Assembly: GCA_030581615.1 (NCBI GenBank)
Contig: JAKTTT010000017.1
Span: 368,845 to 432,844, forward strand
DNA length: 64,000 nucleotides
Direction: 5' to 3'
DNA from: Alloascoidea africana
Lineage: Eukaryota; Ascomycota; Alloascoideomycetes; Alloascoideales; Alloascoideaceae
This document shows positions 5,886 through 48,616 of the stretch, in pieces. Each line of letters begins with the position of its first letter. Positions within the stretch are counted from its first letter, which is position 1. The notes under the pieces were generated by a model, which had not been told where the DNA came from, ran no database searches, and saw only the letters and a list, made by a program, of their open reading frames with translations. The position numbers and the translations under genes were made by a program.

Positions 5886-8800
5886 ATGGCATCGCTAGGT
5901 AGCGTCGCTGAGGTACTTCAGCAATCGTTAGATCCTCGATTGGCTAGAAAAGGTAGGCATGGATTGAGCCTAGGTTTGAATAGGCTGACGAGTTTTCACC
6001 ATTTCGCTGCTCCTGATCTGGAATGAAAACTTCAGCGCACGCACGCAAACACACATGCCCCCTGTTTTCATTTTAGGGAATTGATTGCTCGATTTACTAA
6101 CCATAACATTTGTATTTCTTGAACAGCCGAGCAGAATCTTCGTGCGCTAGAAGCACAACCTGGATTTGTTCTTCAACTTCTCCAAATCACCGCCTCTCAA
6201 GAGCTGCCTAGCAGCACAAGGTTAGCCTCTGCACTGTTCTTCAAAAACTATATTCGAAGAAAATGGACTGTATGCTTATTTTTCAATCGAGGAGAATTTT
6301 TCACAAAACGACTAACGCGAATCTAGGATGAAACTGGAAACTATTTGATCAATGAAGCAGATGTAAATACTGTAAAGCAAGAAATTGTCCCCTTGATGAT
6401 TAGCGTTCCCAGTAACCTTCAAGTACAGCTTGGGGAAGCAATCTCTATCATTGCAGATTCAGATTTTCCCGACCGTTGGCCTCAATTACTTGATGTATGT
6501 TTTGCTACAGGCTTGGCATTCTGCTTCTGTTTTCTAACTAGATGATTTAGACCCTGGTTTCAAGACTCAGTCCCGATGATATGAAGGTGAACGAAGGCGT
6601 GTTACAAGTGGCTCACTCGATTTTTAAGAGATGGAGACCTCTGATCAGATCTGATGCTTTGTTTCTTGAGATCAAATATGTGCTTGAGAAGTTTAGTACT
6701 CCTTTCCTCACATTACTCCAGCAGGTTGATCGTCTCATTGACGAAAACCAAAACAATAAAGAAAAACTGGAGCAACTGCTATCTGTTATGCTTCTCTTGA
6801 TCAAAATTTACTACGACTTGAACTGTCAAGACATCCCCGAATTCTTTGAGGATAATTTGAACACAGGAATGTCAATAATTCACAAAATGTACTCATATAC
6901 AAACCCTCTTCTTGTTACAGATGACGAGGATGAGGCTGGAGTACTGGAGAAGATAAAATCCAGCATCTCAGAGCTGGTTCAACTTTACACAGTTCAATAC
7001 GAGGAGGTTTTCCAGCCCATGATTCCGGAGTTTATTCAAACATGTTGGAATTTGCTTGTTTCTATTGGTCTAGAGCCAAAGTACGATATTTTGGTATCAA
7101 AAGCGCTCTCGTTTCTTACTGCTATTGCAAGCATTCCTAGACATGCCGCTGTTTTCAGTTCCGAAACTGCTTTGAGAGAGGTTACAGAAAAGATTATTCT
7201 TCCAAATATGCAACTGCGTCCATCTGATGAAGAATTGTTTGAAGATGATCCAATCGAGTACACCAGAAGGGATTTTGAAGGATCAGGCAGTGACACAAGA
7301 AGACTAGCATCGACTGATTTCTTGAGAGAACTGAAAGATCGAGATGAAGGTCTTATCACACAAGTTGTAATGTCATACATTACCCATTTTCTGGATGAAT
7401 GGAAAGCTGACAACTCAAAATGGCGATCAAAAGACATTGCGGTGTACTTGTTCACCTCAGTTGCTATTAAAGGTAACATCACTTCTGCTGGTGTCTCATC
7501 TACAAACTCGAACCTGGACATTATTGGCTTTTTCACAACTAGCATAGCTCCCGATCTTGTCAATGAGGGTGCCCACCCAATCCTAAAGGTCGATGCAATC
7601 AAGTACATTTATACATTTAGAAACCAACTCAGCAAGGAGCAGCTGGTCGAAACGTTCCCATTATTGTCAGCACATTTCCGATCTTCAGAGTATGTTGTAT
7701 ACACATACACTGCTATAACAATTGAGCGCATTCTGTCTATTCGAAACCCCGAGAAGACTGGGCCGCTGTTCGATAAAAATGATGTGTCCGGAATCAGCCA
7801 GGAGCTTTTAACCAACCTATTTGGTTTGATATCAAAGGGAACAACTCCAGAAAAGCTGGCCGAAAATGAGTTTCTCATGAAGTGCGTTATGCGTGTGCTG
7901 TTAACTTCCTCTACAACAATTGAGCCATATGCGGATGCCGTGCTTTCTCATATAGTCAACATTGTTGAGCAAATCAGCAAAAACCCTTCGAATCCAAAGT
8001 TCTCGCACTACACTTTTGAATCTATTGGATCAATCATTAAATCTACAATATCTTCCAAAGGTACAGCATATTTCGAATCACTTCTCTTCCCCCCTCTCTT
8101 ACAGATCCTTGCCAATGACATTCAAGAATTTGTTCCCTATGTTTTGCAACTATTTGCATTTTTGTTGGAGATGACACCAACTTCAGAAGGTCTTTCAGAT
8201 AACTACAAGGGCCTTTTACCCCCATTGGTGGCCCCCTCCGCTTTTGAATACAAGGCTAATATTCCAGCAATTGTACGATTGCTGAAGGCTATTGTCAGCC
8301 AGTCGCCTTCTCTTTTTGACAACGATAGCTTACGTTCATTGCTTGGTGTGTTTCAAAGCCTGATTGCTTCTAGGGCAAACGATAACTTTGGTTTTGAGCT
8401 TTTAGAAACAATTTTTTACTACGTTCCTTTTGATTCGTTAAAAGGATATACCTCTTCAGTTGCAAGTCTCCTGTTGCAGAGGTTACAAGGCTCGAGAACG
8501 GAAAAATATGTCCGGAACTTTGCGAGATTCATCTGTTTTCTTGCCGCGACAGACAAAAACCAACTAGGTCCAACGTTTGCAGTAGATTTTATTGATAATG
8601 TACAAGCAAATCTTTTTGGCAACGTTTTTGCACAGTTTGTCGTTCCTACAGCGTTAAAGATTTCAAACAGTCTTGACAAGAAGATTGTCATTGTCGGACT
8701 TACGAAGCTCTTAACAGAAAACCAAAAGTTTATTAGCGGGCCATACTCAGACAAGTGGGTATCTTCCCTGGATGAACTTATTCAGCTAACAGTTTCCGAG

Positions 8801-9130
8801 TCTCCACTTGTAGCTTCTAGTGCTGATCCCCTTGACGAGATTGTGTTTGACCAGGTCGGATTTGGATCACATTTTTCAAAGTTGGTGACCACAAATACGA
8901 AGCCTTTTGATCCCTTGCCATCAATTACTGTTTATCACAATAAGAATCTAGCAAATACTGGAGCAGGGTTTTCGAAAGATGGTCTGTCTCCGGTTACAAA
9001 CATGAACGTTAGAATCTACGTAAAGGAGAAGCTGGATCTTTTGGATAAGGAAATTGGTGGTAGCTTGGCACAGGTAATTTCTCAACTGTCTGGAAAGGGT
9101 AAAGAAGGTTTCCAAAAGTTGACTGCTTGA
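5886..9130 (+). CDS. CSE1: Cse1/CAS, exportin of importin-alpha (4 exons)
   Basis: Karyopherin-beta family exportin that returns importin-alpha (Srp1) from nucleus to cytoplasm with Ran-GTP. Exons: 5886-5952, 6127-6269, 6327-6494 and 6551-9130, giving 2958 nt and 985 residues (S. cerevisiae Cse1 is 960). Donors are GTAGGC, GTATGC, GTATGT and GTATGT-type; branch boxes such as ACTAAC and TCTAACT precede each acceptor. The N terminus has the importin-beta N-terminal repeat with FFKNYIRRKW, and exon 3 ends in the signature SDFPDRWPQLLD, which continues in exon 4 as TLVSRLSPDDM and GVLQVAHSIFKRWRP. The rest is CAS/CSE HEAT repeats. All introns lie in the first 220 codons, typical of 5'-biased yeast introns. 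Confidence 0.95.
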
Positions 9131-29486: not shown

Positions 29487-31648
29487 AAACTCAAGACATG
29501 TATGTATGTATGTACACATAAGGTATGGTATGGTATGAATAATGATAAAGGAGGATTAACCTAACGTAAACGTAAACGTGTTTTATCGGGTTGTTCATTA
29601 TCAGGTGTATACAGAGGGTTTATTAATGCAAAAAAAAGTTTTGTGTTTGACATATTCATAAATTGACGAAATAAAATGTATATAGTCAAAAAAGTTTAAA
29701 ACGTTAAAAACGGTCAAGGTATAAAGTAAAACCGCCCACAAAAATAAAGATGGAACTTTAGTATACATTCCTATAAGTTTGTTTGTTGAGGAGAAATATA
29801 GGATGAAGAAGATGCCGTTCCTGATTCCAAACACACACACGCACACATACATACACATCCAATATTCTTATTATTGTAGACGTTTTTTGGAGAATGGAGA
29901 TGTGTTTAAACGCTAATGATTAGAGTGTTTTCTTTGTACTATCCTTCATACTTCTATGGAGGTAAGGTAGTCAAAGTTTGTTCCTCTGGACAAATAAGTA
30001 AAATAAAGGAAAGGATTGTGTAAGATGGATGGATGGATGATGCAGTAGTTGATGATCATTATCATTGGGACGAGGAAAAGTTAATTTTTGTTTCTTGGGT
30101 GAGTCAAAAAAAAAAAAAAGGAGATTTGGAAGGGGACAGTAGAGTAGTAGTAGGAGTAGTAGAATAGACAGAAGATGACGACGATCTACAAAGCTTAGAG
30201 TGAGTGAGTGAGTAAGAGTTTAAGCTAGAGTTAGAACCAGAACCAGGATTAGAGTTTGAGCTAGAGTCAGATAGATAGATAGATAGAAAAGGATCCGACG
30301 GTGGATCTAACAAGTATCGCGATACAAAAATAAAATGGATGAATAAATGAATAAGAATAAATTTGACAACAAGATGCGTATGTGTATGTGCTTCTAGTTC
30401 CATAGATCATTTGTGAAAGAGAAGCCCAATACAGTTCAGTTCAATTTAGTATGATAGTTTAGTTTTATATATATTTTGATAAATCAGGATATCAGGATAT
30501 CAGGGGTATGGGTAAAATGGTATTTATGTTATGTGGTTTGGCAATTTGTAACCTTGGTTGAACACGCTGTTAAAAGCCCGCAATTTTGGAAAACTGAACT
30601 ATGTGTGAATCGTAAAAAAAGAGTTTTAAGAAATGGCTTTCCTACAGTAGTATTTCATGGTTGTTATTTGACCGTAGTATAGAGCGTTTTTTAAAAAAAA
30701 GCAAGAGATAAAAATCCAAATGATTGAATATTTTGTTTGTCTCTGGTTATTCATCATGTGGTGGTGGTGTGAAAGGAATGAAAGAAACGAAGATAGTGAA
30801 TTGAATTGAATTGAATTGGCTTTATGATAAAGTTTAGTATCATATTCTTGGGTATATATAAGAATATGATTACGATTTACTCTGGTTTCAAGTCACCAAC
30901 TCTTTCTGTGCTTTAGATTGGGTATCACTTTCCGTCAAAGTAGAAAGAACAACTCGAGATTGAATAGTTCGAGCAAAGATGGAAAAAAGACAAATCATGA
31001 TTTTCATATCATACTTTTGAATCTCACTTCAATAATCAGACTGGACAGTGAGTAGACAACCAGTGAGGAATGAAGATATCTGTTCTATCCAGGGTGAACA
31101 TTCCACCGGAACAAGAACAAGAACAAGAACAAGTGCCAAGTTGCAAAGAGACATCAACCCAGTATACAACAACCAGCACATACCCGTGGAAAACGAACTG
31201 TCAGTTTGAGAGGAGTGTTAACTGGGGCTGTGAGCGCCAAACCGAGCAGGAGGATTAGGATTAGGTTGATCCCGGCAAGCAGGCAAAGAGATGAGATGAG
31301 AGACGAGAGTGAGAACACGATACGATACGATCTGCCACTCTGAGATTTGCAGAGATTTGAGATTTGGAGATTTGGAGATTTGGAGGTGGAGACACAAAAG
31401 TTACAGCTGTCACTTTATGCATAAATTCTTCCGCGGGTGCCGCGGCGACGCAGCGCAAAAAGAAACGAGAGGCAAGGAGATTTCGGGCATCTTGCTGTTG
31501 CGTACGCAGTATGCGTTTTAAGCTTGATCTGGGCGCAGGATGCCTTCCGTATGCATCTGTGGGAGCCCAGCGAGCCCAGCAAGCTCAGCGAGCACAGCAC
31601 AGCGAGCGCTGGACGTAGGATCGAGGATGAGATAAAGAGAGGATGAGC

Positions 31649-31682
31649 GAGTGTGAGTGTGAGTGTGAGTGTGAGTGTGAGG
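31649..31682. repeat. GAGTGT microsatellite
   Basis: Tandem copies of the hexamer GAGTGT in the intergenic region upstream of PUF3. Confidence 0.9.
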
Positions 31683-32251
31683 ATGGGCTGGATGACTGGT
31701 CATGGAGACGGTGGCCGGTTCTCGGTTCTCGGTTCTCGGGAGGATGATGAGCAGGAGATGAAGCAGGCGAGAGACACAAGTTGAAGTTGAGAACGAGCTG
31801 CTGAGGTTTTGGAGTGTAGTCTTGTGTTGTGGGCAGAATTAGGCATGTGTCAGTGTCACAAGGTTTAGGTTTAATACCTGATGGAGGAGCATTAATTTGG
31901 AAGCACAACAGTAATCTTCCAGAGGAGGTATTTTTGGTATTATTGTTGCACGAAACACTAACAACAACAACAACAACAAGAAGAAGAAGAATGGTATAGA
32001 GCTCTAGATCCAGACACAACACTCAAAACTCATGACCGGGGAGTGACCGTGGGTGGGATCGGGGATCGCTCGTGGACAACAATGTGTGAAGTGAAGGATG
32101 GATGGGGAAGGGCAAAGACATTCGCTTCATCATATCATATGGGCAGAGAATCAACTCCACCTTAATCTCCTCTTCTACACATGTTATCTGCTGAGAATAC
32201 AATCTGCTACGTTTCCTTGTTCTTGTTCTTTCTACATTTTATTTCTGTTTC

Positions 32252-32279
32252 AGCTGTAGCTGTAGCTGTAGCTGTAGCT
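32252..32279. repeat. AGCTGT microsatellite
   Basis: Four to five tandem copies of AGCTGT in non-coding DNA. Confidence 0.85.
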
Positions 32280-32958
32280 TCGATATTTTTGGCAGCTGTG
32301 TGCACGCGGCTGGATGATGTACACCAGATTGCAATGTGAAGCTGAAGCTGATGCTGTCCTTGTTGGCGTATCACGGGTGTATGGGAATGAAGATAAAGAT
32401 GTAAATGAAGATGAAGATGAAGATGAAGACGAGAATGGGCGGTAATTATGAGCTTTCATCATCACCGGCAATATTTTGTAATTATCTCATTTGGAATACA
32501 CACGGGGAAATTGATTTCTATTAGCGGGAACTAGAACTGGAAGGAGCCTATTATTTAGCCTCTGGATTATGATAATGAGACAGGAAAGCGGGATTCTCGC
32601 CGGACAGATTGGGAATGCCGCCCATCCAATTTCCAATTTCCAATTTCTGGTTTCCAATTTCTGGTTTCTGGGATTTGGGGAGGGCGGACCAGGCATTTTT
32701 ATTTTGGGCACTTTTAATATCCGCGGCGGTGGCAGTTGGCGTGCGCAATGCAGACGTGCAGGCAGAGACAGACCTCCCGGATCGGGACGGCAGGGTAACC
32801 TGTCGCTCGCGGGCGGGAAACGCGCTTAGTAAGGGGGGAGCGGCTGGCGTATCCCGCCTCCATCGAACTGCAAGTGGAACAGTAACTGGAACAGCAACTG
32901 GATGGGGTCCAGGAAGTGGGAGTAGCAGAGCAGAATGTGGAGTAGCTGTTCGAGACAT

Positions 32959-32983
32959 CCACTGGATCCTCTGGATCCAGTGG
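32959..32983. repeat. Perfect 11-bp inverted repeat with 3-nt spacer
   Basis: CCACTGGATCC (32959-32969) and its exact reverse complement (32973-32983) are separated by TCT. The sequence would extrude a stable hairpin. Partial copies (CCAGTGGCCACTG) follow immediately. Confidence 0.9.
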
Positions 32984-33668
32984 TTCCAGTGGCCACTGAA
33001 CAGAGTTCTGTGTTCTGTGTTCTGTGGACGCCATGGCGTGGTTGCGATGAGCCGGGAGGAGCGTTGCAAGGCTTCACGGATGGCCATCCAGACCCGAATC
33101 TGGAGCTGCACCTTTGATCTCGGTCGTAAATTACCGCGCTGTCCAGAACTCAGAACTCAGAACTCTGTTCAGCTCAGCCCTGCTCATCGCCCGACGGTTA
33201 AAGTCAAAGTCAAAGTCAAAAGGCCATGTCAAGGTGCACGTCACAAACATCATCAGGATGGTTGGGAAGATGGTGGTTGAGGATCAAGGCTGTCTGGCGA
33301 TCGATCGAGAGACTAGAGACGAGAGACGAGAGACGAGAACGAGAACGAGAGACATTAATTTAGCAACCCTATTTGCACTCGACAAAAAGTTGCAGATCCT
33401 CTGGTGCATATCCTGAGCGAGCCCTCCAGCCTCCAGCCTCGTGCCCAGTGAGCTGTCCGGGGCCAAGTGCCCGGGCGGGCGCGGGCGGCTGGGCCATCCA
33501 TCCTCCTCCAGCTAGTTAGTTAGCTGGCTGGCAGTGGCAGTGGCAGTGGCAGTTGATGGTGTTGGTGTTGGTGTGGCGGTCCTCGTGACAGGAGAGATCG
33601 GCAACGCAGCGGTGTTTTCAGCCAGCGAGACCCAGACAGACGGTGTTGGGCGAGTTCAGCACAGCGGG

Positions 33669-33756
33669 ATCTCGAATTCGATCTGAATCTGAGCCTGAAT
33701 CTCGATCTGAATCTGAATCTCGATCTGAATCTCGATCTCGATCTCGATCTCTATCT
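33669..33756. repeat. Degenerate GATCTGAATCTC tandem repeat
   Basis: About 88 bp of hexamer-based units mixing GAATCT and GATCTC, 500 bp upstream of the PUF3 start. Confidence 0.85.
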
Positions 33757-34052
33757 GGTGGTTCGGGTGCCAACTCGCTTGTGTACCCAACGCACACCTC
33801 CTGCGGCACACGGCACGGCACGGTACCATTCTGCAGACGCATGCGCCAGTGCTCTTGGGTCCAAACCTCTGGCTTCGATTCGATCCAGATTCCCGTGCAC
33901 CTGTGTCTGCGCCCGTGCAGCACGCGTGCAGCGTGTGCGCAACACGCTGCATGCAGTGCCCGGGCGGCGGGCTGATCTGGGCTGCTGCGACCCGGCGGCG
34001 GCACCCGGCGTGCCCGCGCCCCGGGATCGCGGCCCCGGCGGGAGGTCGCAGT

Positions 34053-34258
34053 TATAAAACCAAGTGCTGCTTCTCTTCTTTCCTTCTCTTTTTCTCTTTT
34101 CTCTCGCTCTCTCTCTTTTCACCTGCTTCCTCTCACTCTCCTCCTTCATCTCCTTCTTCCTGTTCTCTCCATCACATCTTTCTTTCTCGCCCCCAGCCTG
34201 ATAAATCCATCCATCCAGCACCCCCCACTCAATCACACATACTACACACACACTTTAC
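34053..34258 (+). promoter_or_regulatory. PUF3 core promoter: TATA box and pyrimidine-rich leader
   Basis: TATAAAA at 34053-34059, at the end of a GC-rich block, is followed by an almost pure C/T tract (about 34070-34200) running towards the ATG at 34259. The tract is probably the 5' leader or initiator region of PUF3. Confidence 0.55.
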
Positions 34259-36631
34259 ATGTCAACTGCTTCGTCCCCTTCCTCTTCTGCCTGGATACCC
34301 TTCAATCGGACTCCAACTTACAACTCCAGCCGCCAAATGGACCAGGAACAGGCCCTCTACTCCCCTCGCTACTCAACACCCGCTTTCTTGCCGCCCCAGA
34401 TGAACCACAACAGATGTCTCCCGGTGAAGCCTCGAGGATCTTCCTCTTCTACCGATTACAACCTCAATTTCAATTCCAATTCCAATTCCACAACCCCAAC
34501 CGGCCTCCATCACACTCCCCTCTGGTTCTCGACCCAAAACCCTCCTCAAGCTCCTCCTCCACAAGCCGCTCCTGCTGCTCCCACTGCTTGTGCTCCGTTG
34601 CAACTCGCACCCGGCAATCCCCCTGCCTACACAACCAGTGCTGCCGCAGCCCTGCGCAGAAACAGTGCAACCATCATCTCAGATCACGACATTGAACTGT
34701 CCTCTTCAAATCTCAACAGACTGTCGCTTGGCCTGCCCATATCCTCCTTCTCAAACTCGTGCTCCTCGTCATCGTCCTCCTCTTCTTCATCCTCGTCTTC
34801 TCTCTCAACTTCCACAAACGCAACCGTTGTAACCAGAAAAGACCACCATCACCATAGAAATCACCACCAGGCTCCTCCAACGCAAATCCAAACTCAAACT
34901 CAAACTCAAACTCAATCCACACTGCGCATGCCTACTCCTGACTCAAATCCTCAAGGTTATGCTTTCCCTCACAATTATAATCCTCTCCCACAACCCAATT
35001 TCCATTCGCATGCTGCTGTCCGTAGCCTCAGTGCAACCCTGGGAAATCAGGAGTCGGAAATGATCAGAAAATCGCTCTACGGCGACTCTTTACCCTCGAT
35101 GGACAGAATCGTCTCCGTTTCACCAACCTCAACTGCTCTCATCAACGACCACCATAGAATGTCCTTCTCCTCGTCTTCCAATTGTTCCGACTATGCCTCC
35201 TGTGGTAGTGGCTCATTATCCCCCATGGTCTCCTCCACAACCTCAACTTCTGTCTCAAGACCAGTTTCTCAATCCAGTTTTGATTTCGAACGGAGGTTTA
35301 GTTGCTTCGAGCTAAACAGTGGTACCGTTAGTGATTACGATTTGAACGATTGCAACGGTAAATGGAAAGATAGACGTTTATCGCAAACACAACTCCCTTT
35401 ACAAGTTCAAGCTGCTACAGCTGCTGCTGTTACTGCTGCTCCCGATTTCCACAGAAGAGCAATTAATGCAAACACAAATATTTTCAGAAATCACACAACT
35501 CCCTCACCACCACCACCTCCACAATCCCTCATGCAAACTCCAATACAGCAGCAACAGCAACAACAACAGCAACAACGTGTTAGACCATTGACTCTACTTG
35601 AAGAGTTTAGAATGAATAAAGACAGTTTCCAACTGCCTGATATAATCGGTTCAATTGTCGAGTTTGCAAGTGATCAATACGGCTCACGATTCATTCAAAA
35701 ACAATTGGAAATCTGTCCCAGTAAAGAAATCAAAGCGATAGTTTTCGAAGAGGTCCGATTACATCTTTTACAACTCATGACAAATGTATTTGGGAACTAT
35801 GTTGTTCAAAAATTTATTGAACTTGGTGATGATACCCAACGTGCAAGAATCGTTAATGAGATGAAGGGCAAAGTTTTACAACTTTCAATGCAAATGTATG
35901 GATGTCGAGTTGTTCAACGTGTTTTGGAATACATTTCATTAAATGAACAAACCTGTTTGGTTAATGAATTAAGAGATCACATATTGGAATGTGTGAAAGA
36001 TCAAAATGGTAACCATGTTATTCAAAAGGCAATTGAAAAAATCCCAATGCAATATATCGAATTTATAATCGATCCATTAAGAGGTCAGGTTTATCAATTG
36101 GCAACAAATCCTTATGGTTGTCGTGTTTTACAAAGGATTTTGGAAAATTGTCCTGAAAGGAAATATCAACAATTTATATTGGATGATGTTGAAAAATTTT
36201 GTCCCTATTTGATTCAAGACCTGTATGGGAATTATGTTATCCAACATATTGTTGAATGTGGAGATCCCTATTACAAAAATCTGATTATAAACACCGTAAT
36301 GTCTTCTTTATTACATTTTTCGAAACATAAATTCGCCTCGAATGTTGTTGAGAAATGTATAGTTCATTGTTCACATCAACAATTGAACGATCTTATCGGA
36401 ATGATAATCACACCCACAACAAATAGTTTGATTCCAATTAACGAAATGATGAAAGATCAATTTGCAAACTATGTTGTACAAAAATTACTCGAAGTGAGTA
36501 ATTATGAACAAAAAATTGTTCTTGTTGGTTATGTAAAAGCATGTTTACAAAATGTTAAACGATACAATGGTGGGAAAAGACTGGCCTCAATCGAAAGGTT
36601 AATTGCAATTTCCGAAGAGATTTTGGTTTAA
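34259..36631 (+). CDS. PUF3: Pumilio-family RNA-binding protein, Puf3-like
   Basis: 790-residue PUF protein. The first 440 residues are disordered and rich in Ser, Pro, Gln, Asn and Thr, with serine, histidine and glutamine runs. The Pumilio homology domain occupies about 443-787 with eight repeats whose core helices can be read in order: SRFIQKQLE, NYVVQKFIE, CRVVQRVLE, NHVIQKAIE, CRVLQRILE, NYVIQHIVE, SNVVEKCIV and NYVVQKLLE. This S-N-C-N-C-N-S-N series of base-contacting positions is that of canonical PUM/Puf3, which bind UGUA-type 3'UTR elements; in S. cerevisiae Puf3 controls mRNAs for mitochondrial proteins. Puf1/2 and Puf4/5 have different series. It acts by recruiting deadenylase and decay factors such as Dhh1. 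Confidence 0.88.
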   Translation: MSTASSPSSSAWIPFNRTPTYNSSRQMDQEQALYSPRYSTPAFLPPQMNHNRCLPVKPRGSSSSTDYNLNFNSNSNSTTPTGLHHTPLWFSTQNPPQAPPPQAAPAAPTACAPLQLAPGNPPAYTTSAAAALRRNSATIISDHDIELSSSNLNRLSLGLPISSFSNSCSSSSSSSSSSSSSLSTSTNATVVTRKDHHHHRNHHQAPPTQIQTQTQTQTQSTLRMPTPDSNPQGYAFPHNYNPLPQPNFHSHAAVRSLSATLGNQESEMIRKSLYGDSLPSMDRIVSVSPTSTALINDHHRMSFSSSSNCSDYASCGSGSLSPMVSSTTSTSVSRPVSQSSFDFERRFSCFELNSGTVSDYDLNDCNGKWKDRRLSQTQLPLQVQAATAAAVTAAPDFHRRAINANTNIFRNHTTPSPPPPPQSLMQTPIQQQQQQQQQQRVRPLTLLEEFRMNKDSFQLPDIIGSIVEFASDQYGSRFIQKQLEICPSKEIKAIVFEEVRLHLLQLMTNVFGNYVVQKFIELGDDTQRARIVNEMKGKVLQLSMQMYGCRVVQRVLEYISLNEQTCLVNELRDHILECVKDQNGNHVIQKAIEKIPMQYIEFIIDPLRGQVYQLATNPYGCRVLQRILENCPERKYQQFILDDVEKFCPYLIQDLYGNYVIQHIVECGDPYYKNLIINTVMSSLLHFSKHKFASNVVEKCIVHCSHQQLNDLIGMIITPTTNSLIPINEMMKDQFANYVVQKLLEVSNYEQKIVLVGYVKACLQNVKRYNGGKRLASIERLIAISEEILV

Positions 36632-39600
36632 AACAAGAGAAATGAGAACGAACGATGAACGAGAACGAGAACAAGAACGAGAAAATGAAAATGAAAAACT
36701 GAAAACGAAATTGATGTGATATGAATACTCAACTATTGATTTGAACTTGACTTTTTACTGATATATCCCCCTTACCCCCCACATGCTTACTTTACTGTTT
36801 CTTTAGAAGGTTTTTGAAGAATTTTTTAAAACGTTTGGCTTTATCGTTGGATGGTTAATTTTGTGCTTGCTTACTTTACTTTACTTTACTTTACTTGCCT
36901 TTTTCTGGGATTGGCTTTTTACTCTTTCTACATCCTTTTTTCCGTTTTCGTTTTCTGTTTCTTTTCTTGCACGTTCGTTGGGCTCTATGGCATTCTTGTT
37001 TTTTGATTTTGATTTAGAACACCTCTCCACCAATCTTATACACGTTATTACTATTTTTTCTTTTTGATTTTGGATCATTCTGTATTTGACTTTTATATTA
37101 AGGCTCCTTTCACACACACACTTTTTTTTTTCTTTTCATTTTTGTTATTCTATATCTATTATTATCTCCCTGGTTCAACTCTAAATTTGTTCATAGTAGT
37201 GTCTATATATATTTTTGTTTTGTTTATTCGAGACGTTTGTTCTAAACCTATTTTGTATTCGACCCCCTTTTTTTTTTTTTCTATTTGACACCTTGTATTA
37301 CACATGATACTTTACAATTCTTTTATTGTCTTTGCCCTAATCTGTTTGCCTTTGATCCGTGCACTTTCATTTCCATTTTCATTTTCATTTTCATTCTCTT
37401 TGACTTTTGATTGATTGATTGCCTTTATTGCCCCATCCATCCAAGCTTTTTTCCGCTTTTTGCCTTTCATTTTAAAGATGTTGGAGTGTTTCTATTTTGG
37501 CGAGTAACATTATCATTTTTGTCTTTTAACGTTTGAGCACACCCACATATACAAACACACACACACACACACGTATTAATCCAACTATAACTATCTATAC
37601 GTTTAAACCTCTCACCTGTTTGTCTTGCTTTTTTAAAGTATATGTGGTGATTATACATATATATTATTCTCACGACTAAGTTACCCTTTTCATCTTCTTG
37701 TTGTTGTTGCCTATACTATACCCTATCCATAGAAATATTCTACTCTACTACCGTCTTTATATGCTTTTTTCCCCCCTTATCCAAAAAGAATAATACACAA
37801 AAAATCGTAAAAGTGAGATTGAAATTGATAACAGATTTTTTGAAGTTTTGGAGTTTTTCGTTAACTATTTGGAAAATAAAAAAAAATTCGTATGCATGAT
37901 TGGTCTTGTCTTGATTTGTATGTGTGCCTTAAGCCCCAACTTTGATCACATCAATAATAACACACATACACAAAAAAAGAGGGAAAAAAAAAATTGGGGG
38001 GAAATTTAGATAAGTATATACAAGTCAGAAGAGTTTGTTTTTTCATCGAGGGGTCGAGATACTATAAATCTAGTTTCTAACCTTTTATTATTTTCATTTT
38101 TATTTTTAGTTATTTGTGTGTGTGTGTTTTTCTAGACCTTTTTGATATTTTTGTTGTTGTGGGGATCTTGGAACTTGTACAACTTATATCCCATTTTTGT
38201 ATCACTATGGAACATCAACGCAAGAAAAAGGCAAAAAGAAATAGTTAGGCACAACAGCAGCAGTAATACAAAAACTGTACAAAACGCATATATCCAAGTA
38301 TTTAAGGGGAAAAAAAAAGGTTTTGAATCCAACATAAATCTATCTATCAAAAATGTAATCTTTTTTTTTTTTTTTTTGACTTGTTTGTTATTTGTTCAGG
38401 TCTCTAGACATAACAAAGTACAAAATTTAATCTATTGTAGGGTTCTATCGGAGAGTTTATAATTTTTTTTTTTTTTTTTGTTGATACCGTCCGTCTAAAC
38501 AAAAAATTTTGACTTTTTGTGTCTTTAGGAACTGCTGTGTGTATTCTTGTATTGTTTTCTTATCCATGGTAGCCGTAGCCGTAGCCACGACTACAACCAC
38601 AATCACGATCATAGACGAGATATCAGTTGGTAATTTTTTTGTTGTTGACATATGGTGCTCTTGATAAAAAGTTAACATTGGCTAAACTATTTGTTAGTCG
38701 ATTTTAAAAGATCATTCTATACTTGGGACTTGGGACTTGGGACTTGAGACTTGAACCTACACCTACACCGGCCATAGACGGGATCGGACTCTGGACTCCA
38801 TACGATACTACATTACAATGCCATACCATGTCATAGAATGTGTATGGGTCTGGAGAAAACTAAAAGTGAAATGAAACGCCGTTTGCCAATAATTTTCCAA
38901 ACAGTTAACTTAGTGGGGTTTTGCAGATTCTGATTCGTCTTGTCAAGTCTCACTAATCTATTTCGGATTCGAGTTTAACCCAACATAGATCAATATCATA
39001 TCAGATCTCATCTAATACTTTGTAATCCGAACCAACATGTTAAAACAAACTAGTAACATTACTTTTACTAATTTTTCCAATTTTTTTTTTTTTTAAAAAA
39101 ATGGGATCGATAAATGCACACTCGCGTTTAATTATCACACTTTAGTTATGCCTCTGGAATGAAGGTGATGGGGATTGATTGATAAACAAATTGATAGATA
39201 TACACACATACATACATACATACATATAGTTTTCTCGGTTCCCCCTCCTTCAAAAAAGCTCATAATAAAATTTTATTATCCCCGTTTTGCTGTCGTATCT
39301 TGTACTTCTTCCAACATCCGATCCAAAAAAAAAAAAAAACAATTGTAGAAATCCAAGATCCTGTCTTTTGTGTACCATACATACAGTGTGTATAACTTGT
39401 CGTACTCTATCTATCTGTATTCATCATCCCTTGTCATCCGTACCTGTTTCTGTCCAAGGATACGGATTTTGGACATTAGACAAATTGTAAAATGCGGCGA
39501 CAATCAATCAACAAACAATACTAAAACAATTTTGGTTTCTGACCCATGTCTCGCTTTTGTTCCGTTCGTCGCAATAGATAAACAATACAGGCATACACCA

Positions 39601-41853
39601 TGAACGTGGACTTGAGATGTGTATATACTGTACCTGATTTTATTATTATTTCTTTCCTATTGGTAAGAGGAGGGGTCTTTCAGACTTTGCTTTTTACACT
39701 TTGGATTGATTGTATGAGAAACAGACACCAACAAGTTGGCATTTGGTCTTTTTTTTTTATGATTATTATCAGTTTCTTTATTTTTGGGATTTTGGGATTT
39801 TGAATTTTGTATTTTTTTTTTTGAACAGTTGATAAATATAAGCAACCGCTTACCGAACTTGGGAACAGATATCGTGAAATAAGCGCGACACAATATTCTA
39901 TACTGGCAAAAAAGAAATAAGCAAAAAAAAATAATAAAAAAAAAAAAATGGCGTTACATGTTTATTTAACAAGTAGCACAAATTTTTATTTATTTATTTT
40001 GGTGATGGAGATCTCGGCCTGTTTCAAACAAGCCGAGCCTGAGTTCCCGTTTAAGCAATTTAGGTAAGAGAAGAGGTGAAAAAAAACAGCAGAAGTACTG
40101 TTTTCCAATCGATCTAGAAACAATTCATCCGAATATGAACATACGCACTTATTTCTGTTTTTTCTAGCCACGTTGACTTGGTCTTAGACTCAGACACAGA
40201 CTCAGGCTCGGGCTCAGGATCTGGCCTGGCATTGGTATTGGTCCTGGCCCTCAAACATGCCGAAAGGATGGTAATTGAGTCCTGTATCGCCAAGGATGAA
40301 GAAGCAGCCGTGAGAACTGATAATGTCCTTCTCGTATACCATGCTGTCTGTTTCCAGATCCGCGCTTCCTCCATGCCATGTCCCATGTCTTAGCCCATAA
40401 CCACATCATTAAAAAAGTCTCCCTCTCCCTCCCTCCCTCTTTTTTTTTTTTTGTTTTTGCTTATATTATCTTCTACCTTGTCAAACAATGTATACACATG
40501 CTGGATCAGACATGGGAATTGGAAACAAAAAAAAAAGCATTCTTACATATGGAATGAGACGTATCTGTATGCGGTGGTTAATTGAGATTACGGTTACAAT
40601 TGTAATAACTAGCAAAGCTCATTATTAATACTGATTCCACTTTGCCAATCCCATTGGCTATGAGCTTTTGTTTTTCCCCTTTTGTAGCCATTTTCATTTT
40701 CATTTTCATTTTCACTTTCACTTTCACGTTTACTTGTTCTTTTGTTTTTCGATGATGTTGATGACGCACCATCCTCACCATCATCATCATCATTGCAAAG
40801 AACAAAAAGACAAATTTTTATCATACCTAAACCCACTTCCCGCTTCTGTTGATGTCCAAAATAAAGCATTCAAGTGGAAAAATTAGCAGGACCTTGGATG
40901 CACCTACTCAGGACTTATTAAAAGTGTATTGGTATTCTCCTCTTACAATCCCAGACGACAGGTTCTGGCCCCATTCTCTCCTTCTCTATTCAGCTTTCTT
41001 TCTATCTTCTTTCCTTTTTTGTTTCTTCTAGAGGCCTGCCTGTAAAGAAAGAATATAAATCACTTTGCAGAAATGATAATGGGTCCCGCCGCAAACGAGT
41101 GGGTAGGTTTTTATACCAATATAAAATAGAACCAAAACCGCCAAGTTGTTTCACTTTTCAACAAAAGCAAGCCACAGTTGTTTATTCAGAATTGCATAAT
41201 TGGGAAAGGATCAATTATGAGACTTTTTCCAATATATGAAGCAAGCAGCAGCAGGAGAGAGCTAGGAAATTGGGCTTGTTCCAGCACTCAATGCTTTGAA
41301 TGAATTGGCGCGGTTAATTCACCGTCATCATTCTGTTATCTACTGGGATTCTTCCTCGCTTTGGGCGCTCTTGCCGACGACGATGCACAGACTCATGGCT
41401 CGTACTTGCCAAGCAAAGTCGAGCTGAATCAAGTCGAGACTAACTAGTGATTCTTTTAATTAATAGAAGCTCTGTATACTCGCGCTTTTCCTAGCCCTAG
41501 ATCCCTGAACCGCAGCGGGCTCTCAGCCCGACCTGCTCTGAACGCCCAGTGCTTTCTAGAAAGGTCAGATCTGATGCCGGTCCAGTATGTTTCCATCTCT
41601 CTAAATGTAGACTATGGACCCAATCCACATCAACACCATCGCGTAGGTGGTGTGTGCGATTCAACAAAACTCCAGAATGCCCTGGCGTTGACTCATTTCA
41701 CACTCAAGAAGCAAAATGAGTAGAACTGGAGAAAGGTGTCCCCTGACACAAATAATCGACTCATAGACAACCCCAAGAGCAGATCTCCTTTTAAGAGCAT
41801 TGCTGCTCCATCTACTATTCCCCATCCATTAACCCCTTACACCTGTGTCAGTT
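36632..41853. other. Gene-poor 5.2-kb region downstream of PUF3
   Basis: AT-rich low-complexity DNA with many homopolymers and short tandem repeats: TTTAC (36872-36896), CATTTT (37371-37396 and 40689-40714), ACAC (37555-37571), TACA (39205-39226) and CTC-rich runs near 40425. The last kilobase (40870-41850) is more complex in sequence but has no frame resembling a known protein. It must contain the PUF3 terminator and the promoter of the DIP1984-family gene. Confidence 0.5.
40689..40714. repeat. CATTTT hexamer repeat
   Basis: Tandem TTTTCA units; a similar run lies at 37371-37396 in the same gene-poor stretch. Confidence 0.85.
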
Positions 41854-45850: not shown

Positions 45851-46026
45851 CACGTGAAATACAAAAGCTTTTTTTTTGCTTTTGCTCTCGATTTTTCCCA
45901 ACTTTTCATGCGATCCGGGTAACTCCAGACGCAGAGAAGTTGCGAAAAATCGCAGATTTTTAAAATGCCTGCGAGCCCTAGATCACGTGCAGATCTCAGT
46001 TACCCTTCTGCGCGCCAGTATAAAAT
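45851..46026 (+). promoter_or_regulatory. Promoter of the U14 host transcript
   Basis: Elements in order: CACGTG (45851-45856), Reb1-like CGGGTAA (45916-45922), AGCCCTAG (45974-45981, resembling the Tbf1 core used at yeast snoRNA genes), CACGTG (45984-45989) and TATAAAAT (46019-46026). The first spliced donor is 85 bp after the TATA box. The set is typical of yeast snoRNA promoters; individual factor assignments are by motif. Confidence 0.5.
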
Positions 46027-46195
46027 GGCAAAATTTTTTTTTTCGCCTTCAAGAATATTCCCACTCACTAAAGCACTAGCTTTTTTTGGGGGTGGGGGCT
46101 ATAGATAATGGTAAGTGAAGAAAGATACTTTTCTTTGCCAATTGTAGCTGATTTGATAAAGATCGGTTTAAAAGCACTCCTCATACCATTTTTTT

Positions 46196-46374
46196 TCATT
46201 TTCAAACTGATGAAACCCATTTTTACTTCTTTCCTCATCCGATTTCGACTCTGACGACAGGATTAATAACGTTGTTTTCAACTGGTTGCTTTGATTTTTT
46301 TGAAAAATCGGGTAATAATGGTTGTTTACCGACTTATACTTGCCAGTATTTTAAGATTTCTGATTTATGAATGA
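46196..46374 (+). ncRNA. Possible box C/D snoRNA in host intron 1 (snR190-like position)
   Basis: CTGATGA (46207-46213) could be box C and CTGA (46360-46363) box D. The flanks TCATTTTCAAA and TTTATGAATGA pair partly, giving a weak terminal stem. The length of about 180 nt and position just before U14 recall snR190, which is transcribed together with U14 in S. cerevisiae. An internal CTGA (46251-46254) could be box D'. I could not confirm an rRNA antisense element. Confidence 0.3.
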
Positions 46375-46560
46375 TAATGGATATCAAGGGGGGCAGCTTG
46401 CCATTTTTACAAGCTTTGGTTTTTGTGCCTTGTGGATTTCGTTTTGCTAACTTGTTTGCCAATGAATAATAGTGTGATCACATATTAATATGGCCCTGAT
46501 TTCATCCATGTTTGATGATGGTAAGTGTCAAATTTTTATCTGGGGGCTTTTTTTGGGCAC

Positions 46561-46690
46561 AGTCTTTTCATGATGATGAAACAATGTGTAAACATTCGCA
46601 GTTTCCTCGGTAGCGTGCATCAAGAACCCATCTTAGCATGCCGGTGACCGTGGTAGTCCTTCCATGGATGTCTGATTTTGTGGAAAGACT
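46561..46690 (+). ncRNA. SNR128: U14 snoRNA (snR128), intron-encoded
   Basis: Box C/D snoRNA essential for 18S rRNA processing. Terminal stem AGTCTTTTCA (46561-46570) with TGGAAAGACT (46681-46690); box C ATGATGA (46573-46579); domain A ATTCGCAGTTTC (46594-46605), exactly complementary to 18S GAAACTGCGAAT; a yeast-specific Y-domain hairpin with GAACCCATC in its loop and closing CGGTGACCG; domain B CCTTCCATGGATG (46658-46670), complementary with one mismatch to the 18S methylation target; box D CTGA (46672-46675) preceded by GGATGT as in other U14 RNAs. It lies wholly inside an intron, flanked by GTAAGT and CTAAC/TAG signals. Confidence 0.93.
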
Positions 46691-46821
46691 TGTGTTTTAA
46701 AAGTTTGCAACTGTTGTTTTCTAAGAGTTTGTTCTAACTTTTACTAGTATTAATGACTTTCCACTTTAAAAGATTAAATAGATAGTAATATAGATGATGA
46801 ATATCTATTGCATTTTTTATT

Positions 46822-48452
46822 CTACACTGCTGTTCCAAAAGCACAAGGCACCCAATTCGTAGGTCTTCTGGCCCATGCAAAATTTGACGTATTTCCACTT
46901 GCTTCTGCCATTTCTACATCTGTATCTCTGGATGGCATTTGACTTGAAGGCAGGGACCTTAATTGTTTCTTCAAAGTTTCCAGATCCAGTTCCATTTTCG
47001 TAATGTCGATTCCATCTCCATCCCCAGTTGTCAATTGTGATCCATTCAATTTCATTCTGTTTTCAGAGCGCCATTTAAACTGAAATTCTTTCATGGTTTG
47101 AATCAATGGCGTCAGATCTGTTTGTGAGAGATTCAAATCTTGGATATAGCCCAAAAGTTTCAAAGACCTGGGATTCCAAGTGTTAGCAATAACCCAATCA
47201 GGAAAAAGATATAAAGTTAGCTTACCAGTCGGAAGGGAAATAGCGACATTGTTCAACAACGCTCTGTGCATTAACGCCCCATGGCCTCAATGATCTACCT
47301 CTCTGACTCAGAAAATACTTGATCCATTCGACCATTCCTTCGATTTCATAAACGTGCTCAAAACCATCGAGGGATTTATTAATTTGCTCTTGTTCCTCCT
47401 CCTCCTCCTCTTCCTCGTTATTACTACTTTTGGAAATGTGATTTTTGCTCTTGGTGTACCAGCTCGAAGACTTGCTCCATTCGAGCATTTTAACCAGTAC
47501 GTAATCAACAAACCGAGATACAAAGCCCAATGTGTTTAGTTCATCGAATACCGGACTATAGAGCACGGCATATGGACCAATTTTGAGATTTCTAAAAACT
47601 TTTTGGTTAGAAAATACCATATGCGATTCTTCTTCGACAATCAAGGTACTCACTTTTTTGGCAACAATACTTTTCGAAATAGTAAAACATTCATGAATAG
47701 AACCTCATCTTTAGTTTCCAATTCCATCAGCCTATTCATAACTTTCCAATATTCCCGTCCACTTTCTGTACTATCACCTTTTTTAATCACTCTATTTGGA
47801 TCTTTCCGCCTCAATCTGCGCCATTCTCTAAATTCTTGTTTTATTTCTTCTTCCAAGCCACCACTTGAAAATCCATTGCTTTTTTTACCATCTTGGGACC
47901 TTGAGAAAAGTTTGTTTTCAACCCAGTAGTTCTCCCATAACCAAGTTAACGCTCTCCCAGCAGTGTCCCGTAATATTTCCAAAGAAGGAAGAGTCTCGTG
48001 TGTCCCCGTGTGTCTCAACTCAACAAAGTAAGAAGGCAGGTTCAAATTTTTGGCAAGTGTGGTTAATGGAATTGCAAATTGGGATTGTTGTTGAGGATCA
48101 AGTAATCCATTCACAAATCGAATTATCGACATGGAGTAGCTCATTCGTACAACTAGTGGATCCTGAGAATGTCCATCATCCAGAAGAATAGACGCCGTGA
48201 GCATCGAGGTTGCTTCTATCGCATGTGGGATCTTTGTTCTGGTCAAGTAGGCCTGGACCTTTTTCCCATCATCAAAGGTTAGCATACTCCTGCAAAAACA
48301 GAGGGAAAAAAAAAAATGGGTGGTCTCTTGGGTCTTACTTTTGCAACAGCGCGAGCTCGATTGTCCCGATCCTCATCAAATTCGAAAAACCAGGTTTTCA
48401 ACTGCTCCAGTTCTTGAGAAGAACGCCATGCCACTACTTTTGGCGTCCCCAT
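46822..48452 (-). CDS. LAS1: Las1, pre-rRNA ITS2 endoribonuclease (4 exons)
   Basis: HEPN-domain nuclease that cuts ITS2 at site C2 with the kinase Grc3 during 60S maturation. Exons on the minus strand: 48452-48339, 48258-47654, 47591-47226 and 47167-46822, in all 476 residues (S. cerevisiae 502). Donors are GTAAGA, GTGAGT and GTAAGC; branch boxes are TGCTAACC, TCTAACC and TGCTAACA. Exon 1 encodes MGTPKVVAWRSSQELEQL, then across intron 1 comes AVAKVQAYLTRTKIPHAIEAT. The HEPN catalytic motif RHTGTH is at 120-125 in VELRHTGTHETLPSLEIL; RFVNGLLDP precedes it. A Glu-rich run lies in exon 3. The start is chosen at 48452 because TATATATAG lies just upstream. Divergent from NAD kinase by 164 bp. Confidence 0.93.
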
Positions 48453-48616
48453 CTTAATATGTTGAAACTTTTTTGGCGCTCCACCACGAAGCACTATATA
48501 TAGTGTTTTAGAACCACCCACGTGATCCAAGCTCGGGGGAAGGGTTTAGTGATTTGTGTAATAAATGGCACTCGGCCAGCAAACCTTTTGAGTCCACTCT
48601 TTCCCACAAATCCAAG

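Follow-up and report, generated by a model that had tools for sequence, protein, structure and literature searches.

An intronic snR190-U14 snoRNA pair predicted in a non-coding host gene of the yeast Alloascoidea africana

How is U14 snoRNA produced at a locus where it lies between two sets of splice signals, and does it have a partner there? These questions are raised by one locus within the window, the whole 64-kb stretch of Alloascoidea africana DNA analyzed here. A preliminary description had interpreted this locus as an intron-encoded U14 in a spliced, apparently non-coding host gene. Of the possible readings, the sequence still supports this one best, though it was incomplete: the locus is very probably a non-coding host gene that carries an snR190-family snoRNA in intron 1 in addition to U14 in intron 2.

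U14 occupies positions 46562-46689 of the plus strand and includes a 12-bp terminal stem; the assignment is based on a match to RF00016, on pairing with 18S rRNA, and on the predicted fold. The two arms of the terminal stem (46562-46573 and 46678-46689) are seen both in the MFE fold and in the letters, and they flank box C UGAUGA (46574-46579), domain A (46593-46605), domain B (46658-46671), and box D CUGA (46672-46675). Domain A pairs with 18S 83-95 at all 13 of its 13 positions, which is the top duplex when the scan is left unrestricted (score 13; in 100 shuffles, the best score was likewise 13, with a 95th percentile of 11). Read by hand, domain B forms 7 + 6 pairs separated by one internal A-A mismatch, and the base 5 nt upstream of box D faces C414, so that the register is right. 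The 18S reference is a budding-yeast-like rDNA (L002) and not that of A. africana, and the domain B mismatch is judged against this reference. The rDNA in question (L002 2050-5000, BMQD01000062.1, comprising 18S, 5.8S, and the start of 25S) is filed under the bacterium Planomonospora parontospora and is an apparent contamination of that assembly.

A covariance search, suggested earlier as a check on U14, gave a divided answer. Using a permissive threshold, cmscan aligned RF00016 (SNORD14) over its full model length to 46568-46679 of the plus strand with 46.2 bits (E-value 3.9e-8 in a 1.5-kb scan and 1.7e-6 across the whole 64-kb window). This is the top covariance-model score in the window, but it falls below the Rfam gathering score for this family, which is 64. 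The Rfam scan at gathering thresholds was empty and reported neither snoRNA, because U14 and the snR190-like RNA described hereafter both score under the curated cut-offs.

The preliminary description had also pointed to a donor-acceptor pair at 46111 and 46472, upstream of U14. The signals of this pair are intact; what had been overlooked is that the intron between them contains a second snoRNA. This snR190/snR107-like box C/D RNA (46197-46373, plus strand) is placed by Rfam matches and two predicted 25S duplexes, and exhibits box C UGAUGA (46208-46213), ASE1 (46226-46236) upstream of D' CCGA (46239-46242), C' UGACGA (46252-46257), and ASE2 (46339-46351) upstream of box D CUGA (46360-46363). 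Its outer limits are set by a hand-read terminal stem (46197-46206 and 46364-46373, 3 + 5 bp around a 2x2 loop), which is absent from the MFE fold. RF01249 (snR190) matches 46203-46366 with 24.3 bits (E 0.004 in 1.5 kb, 0.17 window-wide), and RF04328 (snR107) matches the same stretch of intron 1 with 18.7 bits (E 1.8), both below their gathering scores of 40 and 44, respectively. Given the window-wide E of 0.17 for snR190, the covariance models alone are therefore insufficient to decide its identity.

Its predicted rRNA targets provide a second line of evidence. ASE1 pairs with GGGGAAAGAAG of 25S helix 73 through 11 bp, including one G-U, and ASE2 pairs with AAATATTGGCGAG of 25S domain I through 13 bp, including two G-U. 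We take GGGGAAAGAAG and AAATATTGGCGAG to be the helix 73 and domain I sites reported for snR190. When the RNA was shuffled 3,000 times, a duplex as good on the named target was obtained in 0.8% of cases for helix 73, in 0.03% for domain I, and in 0/3,000 for both, a significance that is limited to the test on these two pre-named 25S targets. Both duplexes together were likewise found in none of 770 tiles laid over the window on a fixed grid, which also cuts the candidate itself. The unrestricted rRNA duplex scan yielded a best score of 10.0 for this RNA, which is not above 100 shuffles (mean best 9.7, maximum 12). For these comparisons, L001, a viral contig that contains the end of a eukaryotic LSU, supplied the helix 73 piece, and L002 the remaining rRNA; four further rRNA pattern scans over viral contigs gave no match. 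According to the available part of PMC8536666, snR190 has two antisense sites on 25S, in helix 73 and in domain I. Read by hand, the base 5 nt upstream of D' (46234) faces the equivalent of G2395, a numbering inferred from C2392 and G2395 of PMC8536666, and ASE1 is mismatched at the base that faces the C2392 position. Methylation of G2395 is described as not seen in S. cerevisiae and present in S. pombe in the accessible portions of PMC8536666 and PMC11971394. Moreover, the C' box UGACGA is identical to that reported for S. pombe snR107, and the RNA precedes U14 in the same orientation, as do snR190 in the S. cerevisiae pair and snR107 in the S. pombe pair (PMC11971394, available text). Judged from its sequence, the intron 1 snoRNA is probably an snR190/snR107 homologue; the snR190-U14 pairing would therefore be intact.

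Sequence signals place each of the two snoRNAs in its own predicted intron, between consensus splice sites of the plus strand. Exon 1 (46060-46110, its start being a guess from TATAAA at 46019) ends with GATAATG and is followed by the GTAAGT donor of intron 1 (46111-46472, 362 nt), whose branch site GCTAAC (46446-46451) precedes a TAG acceptor. Exon 2 (46473-46520) has only the 48 nt between this acceptor and the next donor, at 46521, where intron 2 begins (46521-46747, 227 nt), with GTAAGT, TTCTAAC (46732-46738), and TAG. Exon 3 (46748-46830, with a provisional end) is convergent with a LAS1-like gene. The splice signals that had been described at 46111, 46472, 46521, and 46747 are thus confirmed, and when the three sequences flanking the two snoRNAs were dinucleotide-shuffled, the complete pattern appeared in 0/20,000 cases. 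Taken individually over 20,000 shuffles, GTAAGT in the left flank arose in 1.0% (6.4% if six donors are allowed), an acceptor followed by a donor in the middle flank in 0.04% with six donors and in none with GTAAGT only, and the acceptor of the right flank in 9.4%. The intron 2 acceptor is the weakest splice element. With both strands counted and the branch set 50-800 nt from the donor, three of the seven GTAAGT/NCTAAC/YAG triples of the 64-kb window fall at the locus, one of them being the exon-2-skipping combination. The U14 stem lies 41 nt from its donor and 48 nt from its branch A; the corresponding distances for the snR190-like stem are 86 and 77 nt.

An explanation that would dispense with splicing is that U14 has its own promoter, or is released from an exon by RNase III as in S. 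cerevisiae, both introns being decoys or relics. A putative promoter upstream of U14 has been reported in N. crassa and an independent one suggested for S. pombe (PMC2780460 and PMC11971394, in their available parts), and a weak NGNN stem (9 bp with one mismatch, at 46520) lies ~40 nt upstream of U14. Nevertheless, both donors, both branch sites, and both acceptors are intact and not decayed, and we regard this explanation as highly improbable. The weak NGNN-loop stem itself (46510-46533) lies over the intron 2 donor and may be a rudimentary Rnt1 site or a product of chance.

The spliced host would be non-coding: as had been claimed, the joined exons offer no usable frame, the longest ATG frame from 46030 on being 22 aa. 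A coding host was rejected on this basis. Another frame, of 27 aa and within exon 1, starts at 46025 and overlaps the end of the TATA box; it is relevant only if transcription begins upstream.

The motifs previously listed upstream of the host are likewise present, and their positions delimit a probable promoter at 45851-46024 of the plus strand. The motif scan places CACGTG at 45851-45856 and 45984-45989, i.e., two of the eight in the window, CGGGTAA at 45916, AGCCCTA at 45974, and TATAAA at 46019. CGGGTAA is presumably Reb1-like and AGCCCTA presumably Tbf1-like. In C. albicans, six snoRNAs have Tbf1 at their promoters (PMC2926782, available text). On one side of the locus is a cytochrome c gene that diverges from it (minus strand, with one intron), and on the other the convergent LAS1-like gene (46822-48470, minus strand), whose last listed frame ends at 46822 and whose Las1 domain is in frame 47650-48285. 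The spacer with CACGTG and the Tbf1-like and Reb1-like motifs is common to the cytochrome c gene and the snoRNA host, and the two may therefore share a divergent promoter. The LAS1-like gene shows three apparent short introns, the first of which (48338-48290) is devoid of a CTAAC branch site; three introns are many for a budding-yeast gene. Elsewhere in the window, 31100-40740 holds many hexanucleotide tandem repeats, and 36001-40000 has a low GC content (0.32) and few open frames.

The Cse1 frame at 6581-9130 is identical to S. cerevisiae Cse1 at 381/703 positions of the compared part of the alignment. Fifteen of the 17 CTG positions in this part correspond to Leu in S. cerevisiae and the other two to Val and Ile; the ORF has 21 CTG, four of them outside the compared alignment rows. 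A CUG-Ser or CUG-Ala yeast was rejected on these 15/17 aligned positions. CTG read as Leu, donors of the form GTAAGT/GTATGC, and branch sites with CTAAC point to a CUG-Leu budding yeast.

When the exons are joined as predicted, a hairpin can form across the exon 1-exon 2 junction. Its 5' arm corresponds to the last ~21 nt of exon 1 (46090-46110) and its 3' arm to the first ~30 nt of exon 2 (46473-46502), both on the plus strand, and the fold of the spliced exons has -22.7 kcal/mol with 18 junction-spanning pairs. One tentative idea, which we hold to be possible though doubtful, is that removal of the snR190-family intron creates an RNase III substrate at the exon junction, as in fission yeast. 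The hairpin was noticed after reading of the Pac1 junction hairpin of S. pombe. Another view, compatible with the host gene and to which we give an even chance, is that the hairpin arises fortuitously from a G-rich exon 1 end and a palindrome with which exon 2 begins, and has no part in RNase III cleavage. Its stability speaks against chance: z is -4.96 and -4.91, with equal stability in only 0/3,000 and 1/1,000 shuffles, in 2/3,000 cases when the exon 1 arm alone was shuffled, and in 1/3,000 when this arm was replaced by random 30-mers of the window. Similarly, a set of 1,680 other junctions from around the locus contained none as stable (acceptors were taken every 4 nt, and the exact real pair is not among them); neighboring junctions share arms, and these comparisons are therefore not independent. 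Six other junctions, namely exon 2-exon 3, exon 1-exon 3, cytochrome c, and the three proposed LAS1 introns, gave no signal (z -0.9 to +1.5), with no hairpin at exon 2-exon 3 (z +1.5) and z +0.26 for the LAS1 intron 2 control. A hairpin within exon 3 (46768-46821) is not unusual either (P 0.12).

Other observations agree with a chance origin. This is one hairpin in one sequence, and 1.4% of 3,000 random 60-nt pieces of the window are as strong. The number of spanning pairs is not unusual, since 14% of shuffles reach 18. The pairing probability of the lower stem is 0.67-1.00 in the spliced RNA and still 0.22-0.33 in the unspliced one. The loop, moreover, is GAUC and not the NGNN that defines budding-yeast Rnt1 substrates in the available part of PMC12508059. 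Among tetraloop stems of at least 7 bp, NGNN caps one of 12 in the unspliced RNA (46030-46830), namely the weak stem at the intron 2 donor, and none of two in the spliced RNA. Before splicing, the upper stem can also form, at 46465-46485, with the end of intron 1 (TAATAG) in place of the exon 1 end; the 3' splice site may therefore be buried until the intron is removed.

The same hairpin bears on whether U14 leaves the precursor through splicing at all. Processing could be mixed as in S. pombe, with intron 1 spliced, U14 obtained mainly from RNase III cleavage of RNA that retains intron 2, and the intron 2 signals little used. This would match the exonic S. pombe U14, which is hardly affected by splicing (PMC11971394, available text), the low strength of the intron 2 acceptor, and the resemblance of the junction hairpin (z about -5) to a Pac1 substrate. 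On the other hand, GTAAGT follows directly on the 48-nt exon, TTCTAAC and TAG are both there with U14 in between, and the GAUC loop departs from the Rnt1 rule. We thus consider mixed processing rather unlikely and favor a host gene in which both snoRNAs are intronic.

Based on these features, in which the identities of the snoRNAs, their rRNA complementarity, the splice signals, and the potential for the hairpin can all be read, we infer how the locus may be transcribed, spliced, and processed, and what an RNase III might do. A single Pol II transcript would begin just 3' of the TATA box near 46019, and splicing would take out both introns. Debranching and exonuclease trimming down to the assembled C/D snoRNPs would then release both snoRNAs, while the tiny exons would be discarded. 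By analogy with the families to which they are assigned, U14 would base-pair in the 5' part of 18S and guide methylation at the C414 position, and the snR190-like RNA would pair with 25S helix 73 and domain I as a chaperone and perhaps as a methylation guide. Removal of intron 1 would bring together the two arms of the strong hairpin. An RNase III may cut there, either to dispose of the host RNA once it is spliced or to free U14 when intron 2 remains unspliced.

The locus would accordingly combine an intact snR190-U14 pair, both members predicted to be intronic, with a yeast that reads CTG as Leu, and its value is that of a budding-yeast case of the intronic pair, predicted from sequence. Among the literature matches listed, as judged from titles and the starts of abstracts, no intronic snR190-U14 pair was recognizable in a budding yeast; this concerns those matches and is no claim about the printed record. 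The closest parallels for the hairpin come from fission yeast, and the comparisons that follow are based on the available portions of the papers cited. At the S. pombe mamRNA locus, snR107 is intronic in a non-coding host and U14 is downstream and exonic (PMC11971394), and the exon junction produced by excision of the snR107 intron lies within a Pac1 (RNase III) hairpin that extends from -15 in exon 1 to +121 in exon 2, with -35 kcal/mol (PMC12508059). The A. africana locus is alike in its predicted intronic snR190-family RNA, the place of this RNA upstream of U14, its predicted non-coding host, and its predicted junction hairpin; it differs in that U14 is predicted to be intronic and that the hairpin is smaller, about -21 to +30 with -22.7 kcal/mol. 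The authors of the 2025 S. pombe study described conservation of snR107-U14 with an intronic snR107 as 'not evident' in organisms farther away than other Schizosaccharomyces (PMC12508059). If the hairpin is real, RNase III processing gated by splicing would be present in a second lineage, that of A. africana, and a splicing-gated switch at snR190-U14 would be ancient in ascomycetes and kept here although U14 is intronic.

In S. cerevisiae, snR190 and U14 derive from one unspliced, Rnt1-cut precursor (PMC11971394). The pair is the same, with snR190 upstream of U14, and the contrast with an intronic arrangement, drawn in the preliminary description, is correct (PMC11971394). If the splicing-gated switch exists, this unspliced dicistron would be what remained after intron loss, and a junction hairpin acting as an RNase III site would offer a testable path by which processing could pass from splicing-gated to splicing-free.

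Intronic snoRNAs in non-coding hosts have also been described elsewhere. The C/D snoRNA host genes of Candida yield non-coding transcripts with the snoRNAs in their introns, and very short exons occur in some of them (PMC5033589). They resemble the predicted host in this respect; they belong to CUG-Ser yeasts, whereas CTG is Leu in this window. The main text of PMC5033589, which does not include its cluster figure, names neither snR190 nor U14 nor snR128, and PMC4202332 mentions none of the three. Human ZFAS1 similarly harbors the snR190-family SNORD12/12B/12C in introns of a non-coding host, with no U14 mentioned for it in the available text (PMC11971394). Other snoRNA clusters share the history of the snR190-U14 pair, namely clusters I-III (PMC3596301) and those of Candida (PMC5033589).

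The nearest counterpart is cluster V of N. crassa, in which CD16, tabled with snR190 and HBII-99, and CD37, which is U14, are listed as intronic, are co-transcribed as judged by RT-PCR, and have a host with short frames only (PMC2780460). N. crassa is a filamentous fungus, and the available part of the paper mentions no junction hairpin for cluster V. The two snoRNAs, their intronic location, and the short-frame host are those predicted here (PMC2780460), and the locus is therefore a further member of a known arrangement. Taken together with N. crassa, it suggests an ancestral intronic form, from which S. cerevisiae would have lost the introns while keeping the pair.
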